Source: Rickettsia typhi | GTDB lineage: Bacteria; Pseudomonadota; Alphaproteobacteria; Rickettsiales; Deianiraeaceae | Length of the DNA stretch: 64,000 bases | NCBI GenBank assembly: GCA_945881985.1 | Contig: CAMCVL010000006.1 | Coordinates: forward strand, 31,197-95,196 | Direction of reading: 5' to 3' | Shown here: positions 51,171-63,229 of the stretch, piece after piece | How the letters are laid out: each line of letters begins with the position of its first letter | Position numbering within the stretch: the stretch's first letter is position 1 | The notes under the pieces: model-generated | Told to the model about the DNA's origin: nothing | What the model saw: only the letters and a program-made list of their open reading frames with translations | The model's database searches: none | Position numbers and translations under genes: made by a program

Positions 51171-51222
51171 TAGCCAGCCCGCCTCCCCCCTTGCTGGCAA
51201 AGCCAGCAGGCGGAGCTGGCTA
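51171..51222. repeat. GC-rich nested palindromic element, copy 1
   Basis: Outer arms TAGCCAGCCCGCCT / AGGCGG(A)GCTGGCTA, inner hairpin GCTGGC-AAA-GCCAGC, C-rich left bulge. Confidence 0.8.
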
Positions 51223-51278
51223 ATGAGGAAGCCGCGAAAGCTTTAACACTATTTACTTACTATAATTATTAATATTTT

Positions 51279-52634
51279 ATGAAAAAACTAGCAGAGGTGT
51301 ACCACATGGACATCTACGGCAAAAGGCTACCAAAGTTCAAACAAATTAGCGAGATAGATTTAGAAACATCGGCGTTTACAAAGCTTGAGCCTTGTGCCCC
51401 ATTTTACTTGTTTGTACCGCAAGATAATACCCTAAGAGCCCAGTACGACAAGGGCTGGAGCTTAAGGGATGTTTTTATAGAGAGTGGGGTTGGTATTACA
51501 AGTGCTCACGATGATTTTGTTGTTGATTTTAAGAAAGAAAAACTTGTGAATAAATTTACAGAGTTTCAAAAATCAGAGAAAAGTTTGGATTTGCACGATA
51601 AATTCAATGTCAACAAAAAGGCAGGATGGGATATTTTAAAAGCTTGGGAGGAGCTTCAGGTGCTTTCTGCAAACGATATTGATAACTTGATTTGTAAAAT
51701 AGATTACCGCCCCTTTGACGCAAGGCATATTATTTATCACGATGCTCTTGTTTGGCGAACTGTTAAAAAAATGACTAACCATCTTCTTGGCAAACAAAAC
51801 ATATCCCTTGTCTTTGTTCGCAACCAACAAGGTGCTAGCTACTACGATAATGTTTTTATTTCAAAACACATAATTGACTTACACTTACTGCCAATAGGCT
51901 CATACCTCGCCCCCCTCTACCTCTACACCGACAACCTTGGAATGGAAGAGAAAACACCAAACTTTCAACCAGAGTTTTTAAAGATGATTGCGAATCTAGG
52001 TAAAAACAACCCCCTTGAGGGGGAGCTGGAATCTTGCAAAGATTTTGGTGGGGAGTTTAATAACAACAACCCCTCCCAGAATTTGCAGGCAAATTCTACC
52101 CTCCCTCAAGGGGAGGGTGATACCCCTCCTACTCCAGAACAAATTTTAGCCTACATCTATGCCGTTTTGCACTCTAACAATTACAGAACAAGGTATTTAG
52201 ACTTTTTAAAGATTGACTTCCCTAAGATTCCATTTGATGTTTCAATTCAGGAATTTAAACGCCTTGCATCACTAGGGCAGGAGCTAATTGAGGCTCATTT
52301 GATGCAAACCCCTCCTTCTTCCTCCCCTGTTAGGGGAGGTTGGTGGGGTCTTAGCATTGGCAATCCTGAGTTTGACGGCGAGCAAAACTTTGTTGTAGAA
52401 AAGGTATCTTACAACCAGCCAACACAAAGGCTTTATTTTAACAAAACTTGTTATTTTACTGGGGTATCTCCTGCAGTTTGGGAATTTAAAATAGGTGGCT
52501 ACCAAGTGCTTGATAAATATTTAAAATCTCGTAAGGATACTAATATATCTGATGACTTAAAGCATATTCAAAACATCATAAAGGTGCTGGAGTATAGCGT
52601 AAAAAAGATGGAGGAGGTGGATAGTTTAATTTAG
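51279..52634 (+). CDS. Fragment (mid to C-terminal region) of a type ISP-like R-M protein with in-frame palindromic inserts
   Basis: VYHMDIYGKRLPKF, TPEQILAYIYAVLHSNNYRTRYLDFLKIDFPKIPF, YFTGVSPAVWEFKIGGYQVLDKYLKSRK typical of the specificity region; no methyltransferase motifs present. Confidence 0.75.
   Translation: MKKLAEVYHMDIYGKRLPKFKQISEIDLETSAFTKLEPCAPFYLFVPQDNTLRAQYDKGWSLRDVFIESGVGITSAHDDFVVDFKKEKLVNKFTEFQKSEKSLDLHDKFNVNKKAGWDILKAWEELQVLSANDIDNLICKIDYRPFDARHIIYHDALVWRTVKKMTNHLLGKQNISLVFVRNQQGASYYDNVFISKHIIDLHLLPIGSYLAPLYLYTDNLGMEEKTPNFQPEFLKMIANLGKNNPLEGELESCKDFGGEFNNNNPSQNLQANSTLPQGEGDTPPTPEQILAYIYAVLHSNNYRTRYLDFLKIDFPKIPFDVSIQEFKRLASLGQELIEAHLMQTPPSSSPVRGGWWGLSIGNPEFDGEQNFVVEKVSYNQPTQRLYFNKTCYFTGVSPAVWEFKIGGYQVLDKYLKSRKDTNISDDLKHIQNIIKVLEYSVKKMEEVDSLI
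52010..52117. repeat. Two palindromic units in inverted orientation, inserted in frame in the R-M fragment
   Basis: Unit 1: CCCCC-TTGA-GGGGG then AATCTT-GCA-AAGATT. Unit 2: AGAATTTGC-AG-GCAAATTCT then CCCTCCC-TCAAG-GGGAGGG. The reverse complement of unit 2 aligns with unit 1. Confidence 0.75.
52308..52349. repeat. Third palindromic insert in the same ORF
   Basis: Outer ACCCCTCC / GGTGGGGT, inner perfect CCTCCCCT-GTT-AGGGGAGG; encodes TPPSSSPVRGGWWG. Confidence 0.7.
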
Positions 52635-63100: not shown

Positions 63101-63153
63101 AAACACACACGCCCCCGCCCCCCAGCTGGCTTTGCCAGCGGGCGTGTGTGTTT
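63101..63153. repeat. GC-rich nested palindromic element, copy 2
   Basis: Outer arms AAACACACACGCCC / GGGCGTGTGTGTTT (perfect 14 bp), inner GCTGGC-TTT-GCCAGC, C-rich left bulge CCGCCCCCCA. Confidence 0.8.
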
Positions 63154-63229
63154 GTTGGGTAAGGTTTTTTTAATTGACAACTTTTTTGTATTAAATAAAA
63201 AAATACTGATATGTCCTATATACCCTATC

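Follow-up and report, generated by a model that had tools for sequence, protein, structure and literature searches.

What kind of element placed two facing palindromic units, in frame, within a restriction-modification gene? The question is raised by the window, the whole stretch of 64,000 nucleotides of DNA that was analysed, in which two head-to-head double-hairpin units lie at about 52007–52122 within a C-terminal fragment of a Type ISP gene. The preliminary description of this DNA had reported palindromic units facing each other in frame within such a fragment, and it was right about the sequence, the coordinates, and the open frame.

Host gene and empty site

The host open reading frame (51279–52634, forward strand) encodes 451 residues and is formed by a Type ISP restriction-modification C-terminal specificity domain (PF18135, E 1.8e-67 in a Pfam scan). 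It is truncated at the N-terminus relative to a 1046-residue paralogue on contig C8 of the same genome, G000, with which it shares 94% identity across the C-terminal part. The insert separates two conserved blocks of the Type ISP protein, PNFQPEFLKM and PEQILAYIYAV. The stretch from AAGATG to CCAGAACAA (51987–52133, forward strand) is 147 nt long in the window and 27 nt long in the paralogue G000:C8, a net insertion of 120 nt, or 40 codons, read directly from both sequences. A second in-frame insert, unit 3 (52309–52349, forward strand; CCCCTCC...CCTCCCCTGTTAGGGGAGG..GGTGGGGT, encoding PPSSSPVRGGWWG), lies approximately 190 bp downstream of the first and was overlooked in the preliminary description. 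It is likewise missing from G000:C8 and adds a net 30 nt to the window reading frame. Since G000:C8 carries neither insert, it serves as the empty site for both. The paralogue (L046) has an apparent degenerate C/G-rich in-frame stretch, NAPSSFSEGGDVSFPSIPLGGVACGA, upstream of the domain before AAVYHMGIYGK.

The first insertion site is empty in G000:C8 and empty or short in most of 12 homologues. Genome G007 has a similar pair of units there, and the sister genome G001 has a different insert made up of several units. The site is either a permissive linker that has been hit repeatedly or one that received an old insertion which later changed. A protein search with the window Type ISP protein gave no match in named genomes. 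Matches to guaA reached only 52–58%, the best being alphaproteobacterial, which places the genome no lower than class. The Pfam scan detected host domains only, with no Hint (intein) domain in the window reading frame or in the host parts around the embedded DUF559 copies described below, and no intron was found in Rfam scans. Another hairpin family, which is C-rich (GCTGGCAAAGCCAGC / GCTGGCTTTGCCAGC), occurs in the window at 51180–51240, on the 5′ side of the ISP fragment, and at 63112–63170, near the window end.

Architecture of the insert

The layout of unit 1 recurs in unit 2 when the latter is reverse-complemented: a C/G hairpin, a second hairpin, and a GG-rich box. Unit 1, the R unit (52007–52058, forward strand; AACCCCCTTGAGGGGGAGCTGGAATCTTGCAAAGATTTTGGTGGGGAGTT), was delimited by sequence reading and alignment and encodes NPLEGELESCKDFGGEF. 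Its first hairpin, CCCC-TTGA-GGGG, spans 52010–52023 in both sequence and folding, and is followed by hairpin 2, AATCTTGCAAAGATT, read from the sequence at 52030–52044. The unit is closed by the G-box GGTGGGG at 52047–52053, as seen in sequence and alignment; all three parts lie on the forward strand. A short spacer (52054–52067, forward strand) separates the two units, and it is in this R/L interval that the DUF559 gene is most often found in complete relatives. Unit 2, the L unit, is the inverted copy (52068–52120, reverse strand) and matches the whole model of the Rfam family whalefall-1 (RF01762, positions 1–56) at 30.8 bits with an E value of 3.9e-6, below the gathering cut-off of 37 bits. 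Its hairpin 2, AGAATTTGCAGGCAAATTCT (52078–52097), and hairpin 1, ACCCTCCC-TCAA-GGGGAGGGT (52098–52118), both given on the forward strand, were assigned from the sequence and the whalefall-1 alignment. The unit ends read AAC/ACCCC...GGTGGGG.

The two units had been regarded as inverted copies along about 50 bp. The three-part architecture does hold throughout, but the strict alignment of unit 1 with the reverse complement of unit 2 covers only about 27 bp, with a score of 25, compared with a mean of 11.8, a standard deviation of 2.2, and a maximum of 26 in 2000 shuffles. The segment 52007–52128 folds with a minimum free energy of −58.6 kcal/mol (z −5.3), which was matched by none of 200 shuffles.

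Copies in the genome and its relatives

Further copies of related stems were sought in G000 and found: the pattern TCCCC-loop-GGGGA occurs 64 times, as against three for the reversed control pattern. CTCCCC-loop-GGGGAG stems number 59 in G000, 73 in the sister genome G001, and 13 in G007, and are absent from all other family members searched. The 2.0-Mb genome G028, from the same order, contains at least 89 near-identical copies of an IS200/Y1 transposase and no CTCCCC-GGGGAG stems. In the genome itself, 51 of the 52 G000 stems classified in context (23 clusters) are intergenic, and unit 3 alone lies in a long open reading frame. No gene other than the Type ISP gene contains the CCCCTTGAGGG type. 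The TTGA variant is likewise confined in G000 to the Type ISP gene of the window. Intergenic copies in G000 are composed of a hairpin, GGTGGGG...AACAACCCCACC, a second hairpin (CTAGGCTAAAGCCTAG or CGACTTTGTCG), and then a CCTCCCC/GGGGAGG hairpin; unit 3 has the stem type of this family. The whole 133-bp insert, used as a DNA query in G000, retrieved itself and weak matches, and the family is visible only through stem patterns. Some clusters, including that at G000:C5:71962-72556 (L065), are intergenic tandem arrays of CTCCTCCCCTTTAAGGG-type repeats of about 30 bp that adjoin R/L-type hairpins, and the spacing of the arrays suggests stepwise amplification.

Near-identical R-L elements of about 120 bp are present at several loci of genome G021, among them ileS and a 733-residue gene that we named fadJ-like by reading, both of which they enter in frame. 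Their peptides follow the pattern NSPLEGES...GG...PHQN...TPPQGGS and are alignable with the window peptide; the ileS insert peptide NSPLEGESKSASDSVGGDNQLPNAPHQNGNAALTPPQGGS aligns in the same frame with NNPLEGELESCKDFGGEFNNNNPSQNLQANSTLPQGEGD of the window. The preliminary description would have counted the same peptide in unrelated genomes against insertion. It is present there, yet in different genes, which favours mobility and is no argument against insertion. The proposal that in-gene copies share a frame agrees with the TTGA-type copies verified in genes of relatives. The favoured frame reads PLEG for R units and PPQG or LPQG for L units, with one exception, in genome G034; it may be due to selection and to the avoidance of stops, and not to targeting.

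DUF559 nuclease genes between the units

Because G000 contains no genome-wide TTGA-loop family, the variant was followed into relatives, where its units adjoin, and are in one frame with, the gene of a Vsr-like endonuclease, DUF559 (PF04480). The complete form is composed of an R unit, a gene for a DUF559 protein of about 110 residues, and an L unit, and is approximately 450–500 bp long. The closest solved chain to DUF559 of the complete element is PDB 3HRL (E 5.9e-33); a structure predicted without alignment reached a pLDDT of 50 and was set aside. Among 36 relatives, strong DUF559 matches were found in eight of the nine genomes with at least two stems and in none of the 27 others. The exception is G000 itself, which is 88.7% complete and has no DUF559 besides a weak helicase-terminal match, so that the driver would have been lost, left unassembled, or be located elsewhere. 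Beside the window units there is no DUF559 gene, whereas G007, G021, and G001 have one together with matching units, and the window copy is therefore termed a miniature derivative and not a complete copy.

Eighty DUF559 loci were collected from the order and class without a random draw, one batch for its long open frames and another as the strongest hits. Of these, 54 have a perfect 7+7 C/G hairpin no more than 120 bp to the left of DUF559, 50 have one no farther to the right, and 34 have both. At 151 pseudo-positions displaced by 850 bp within these loci, the corresponding counts are one, zero, and zero. The hairpins are concentrated within 200 bp of DUF559, and beyond 300 bp they number 0–2 per 100-bp bin. 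The order R-DUF559-L was found in 27 loci, L-R in five, L-L in two, and R-R in one, the remaining loci having just one flanking unit or being not orientable. Some DUF559 loci, such as L301 of E. coli, have one flanking palindrome or none.

Across 385 genomes of the class, 53 of the 93 DUF559-positive genomes contain at least ten stems, versus 10 of the 292 DUF559-negative ones (Fisher p 2e-29), in a count that is uncorrected for genome size, G+C, and relatedness and is confounded by the first two. DUF559 was called here at E 1e-15, a threshold that may miss some copies; the reversed-pattern counts remain low across these genomes. Hairpins of this kind lie beside DUF559 in 17 of 18 named records of a plasmid collection, Deinococcus and Cyanobacteria included.

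The window insert has the double-hairpin units with a GG-box, in an inverted R/L pair, of the DUF559-associated element. In G007, the R unit in the Type ISP gene and the R unit beside DUF559 differ solely in the loop of hairpin 2, and unit 2 of the window aligns over about 50 nt with a DUF559-flanking unit of that genome. The DUF559 copy in dnaE of G021 bears the units of the 120-bp R-L elements of the same genome. We read the window insert as the R-L form without the nuclease on the basis of the peptide match in G021 and the unit match in G007. In the open-access papers mentioning DUF559 that our search covered, no link to palindromes was found.

Complete elements within genes

Complete DUF559 copies are positioned in frame in dnaE (G021), in ileS of G027 and G034 at different points, in rdgB/Ham1 (G034), and in genes for a Type IIG enzyme (G007), a Pyr_redox_2 protein (G020), and a YkuD protein (G145). 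Separate scans of the host halves matched Ham1 1–104 and then 109–186 across the insert, and tRNA-synt_1 3–183 and then 184–407 in one case and 2–182 and then 185–409 in the other; each time a single host domain continues from the point at which it broke off. Host domains also surround DUF559 in dnaE, Eco57I / TaqI_C, N6_Mtase / Type_ISP_C (same genus), and YkuD. In the genus of the window, DUF559 at G001:C2:8213-8530 (L198) is in frame in a Type ISP gene and is flanked by CCTCCCCTCTTAGGGGAGG and TGCGACAAAGTCGCA, which are of the unit type of the G000 intergenic family. The flanks of DUF559 at L198 are direct repeats of a palindromic array. A Pseudanabaena galeata protein, WP_281009668.1, is apparently a methyltransferase-like protein, identified by reading, with an inserted DUF559 and palindrome-coded peptides. 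In three Deinococcus species (L302, L306, and L310), DUF559 occupies three different places of the hpa (hydroxyphenylacetate) gene cluster, a sign of movement.

The units could instead be independent passive repeats resembling Rickettsia palindromic elements (RPEs), which insert in genes on their own and have DUF559 as a frequent passenger or preferred target. Intragenic repeats of this kind are known, as RPE-4, RPE-6, and other REPs lack a known dedicated transposase (PMC3733652), and G000 with its 59 stems and no full DUF559, together with the ten stem-rich DUF559-negative genomes, would fit among them. However, the symmetric order of R unit, nuclease, and L unit in 27 loci, the near absence of hairpins beyond 200 bp from DUF559, the nuclease-bearing complete copies in frame in unrelated host genes, and the recurrence of the association in Deinococcus and Cyanobacteria make passive repeats an unlikely explanation.

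Relation to whalefall-1

In 2010, whalefall-1 was known only from a whale-fall metagenome and was taken to be a probable noncoding RNA (PMC2864571). It resembles the units described here in its two adjacent hairpins and GGGUGAGG-like tail, and differs in having been described as an RNA; in the present data it acts as a DNA-element end, one that may also be situated within coding frames. In genome G023 (L196, G023:C1:1494557-1495149), whalefall-1 matches above the cut-off (39.1 bits) and one inverted match (28.1 bits) directly flank the DUF559 gene, and weaker matches are located at DUF559 flanks elsewhere. If the units were transcribed structured RNAs, the copy within the Type ISP gene would be incidental. 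The match of unit 2 to RF01762 and the strong fold of the insert agree with such an RNA, but units that occur in inverted pairs around DUF559 and within coding frames are both explained by a symmetric DNA element, and the original description drew on the single metagenome; we regard the RNA reading as very improbable. Whalefall-1 fits better as the end of a DNA element than as a noncoding RNA.

Comparison with known repeats and nucleases

RPEs and the Wolbachia palindromic element WPE are short palindromic DNAs located between genes and in frame in unrelated genes, where they encode a favoured-frame peptide (PMC10969869). The window family is like them in its in-frame insertion into coding genes, intergenic copies, and favoured frame. 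The GTAG and CGTC end tags mark two described REP super-families, and RPE-4 and RPE-6 are of the CGTC type (PMC3733652). No CGTC tag of the RPE-4/RPE-6 type is present at the ends of the window units, and the distinction from RPEs is drawn by end tag and description. The families also differ in the nuclease gene that lies between the units in relatives and in the almost exclusively intergenic position of own-genome copies. The likeness to RPEs put forward earlier is thus apt for behaviour, the units being palindromic, in frame, and scattered in copies, but membership among RPEs is not established. The window copy is ordinary within its family; what is new is the link of the family to DUF559. 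We know of no mobiliser of RPEs.

DUF559 has been placed among EDxHD-type homing endonucleases (PMC9403480), and DUF559 proteins are Vsr-like PD-(D/E)XK nucleases (PMC12907096). The Caulobacter DUF559 protein VsrA has a proposed role in mismatch repair, a host role that counts against the mobile-element reading of DUF559; the word palindrome does not appear in that paper (PMC12907096). The nuclease of the element is of the same DUF559/EDxHD (Vsr-like) kind as I-Bth0305I, VsrA, and PDB 3HRL, from which the element is distinguished by its bounding double-hairpin palindromes, common nuclease-less copies, and lack of an intron or intein. Similarly, REP/REPIN-RAYT systems (REPtrons) and MITEs are small inverted-pair derivatives of an element with a DNA-processing enzyme, but here the enzyme is of the PD-(D/E)XK type instead of an HUH tyrosine or DDE transposase, no GTAG tag is present, and transposition is presumed. 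The CIR repeats of Caulobacter, compared by description only, are also an alphaproteobacterial inverted-repeat family; they are reported as strictly intergenic (PMC10969869).

Ordinary length variation of a disordered linker by local repeat expansion, with no mobile element involved, is scarcely credible. The site does lie in a variable linker between conserved blocks and several kinds of insert occur there in homologues, but the same units are found again in genes and genomes unrelated to these and between genes, and the insert is a structured inverted pair with the same net 120 bp as the G021 elements. REPs or REPINs moved by a RAYT (Y1 tyrosine transposase) are likewise short and palindromic and can be paired in opposite orientation, as REP dimers are (PMC3733652), but this driver was rejected as the least plausible of all, as G000 and G001, the richest in copies among the relatives, contain no Y1_Tnp, the unit ends bear no GTAG tag, and no RAYT is located between units.

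Model and implications

The insert in the window is probably a miniature, nuclease-less derivative of a small mobile element that encodes DUF559, is bounded by palindromes, and inserts in frame. The in-frame insertion, the empty paralogue, the copy families, the tight flanking of DUF559, and the complete copies in frame are shown directly by the sequences. We infer that DUF559 drives the movement, and in what way. The DUF559 protein would nick or cut DNA at or near the palindromic ends or at a target, and repair or replication would then copy the element into the break, in a homing-like or MITE-like spread. Miniature forms, each an R unit, a short spacer, and an inverted L unit of about 120 bp in total (40 codons), would be mobilised in trans. 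The elements land mostly between genes and in some cases in frame inside them. A single frame stays open across the two palindromes and, in complete copies, across the nuclease as well; the host protein thus acquires a polar loop and remains readable. Within genes, only in-frame copies located in loops would survive.

We lean towards the broader view that such elements constitute a widespread, unrecognised class of minimal autonomous elements of about 0.45 kb in Alphaproteobacteria, Deinococcus, and Cyanobacteria. Its members would carry a Vsr-like/EDxHD DUF559 between double-hairpin palindromes, give rise to R-L miniatures, and insert in frame and without splicing into essential genes, whether or not they contain the nuclease; their ends would be what is seen as the whalefall-1 "RNA" and as many C/G-rich protein-coding palindromes. 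The Rfam family whalefall-1 accordingly deserves re-examination as the end of a mobile DNA element. Some proteins annotated as "DUF559 domain-containing" call for caution, as the nuclease in them has been inserted into a host protein (IleS, DnaE, RdgB). The element would also explain the odd PLEGE/PPQGG-like peptides in otherwise conserved proteins. To our knowledge, the spread of protein-coding palindromes such as RPEs has had no known driver so far, and the link to a small nuclease across several phyla provides a concrete, testable candidate driver for RPEs and the like.
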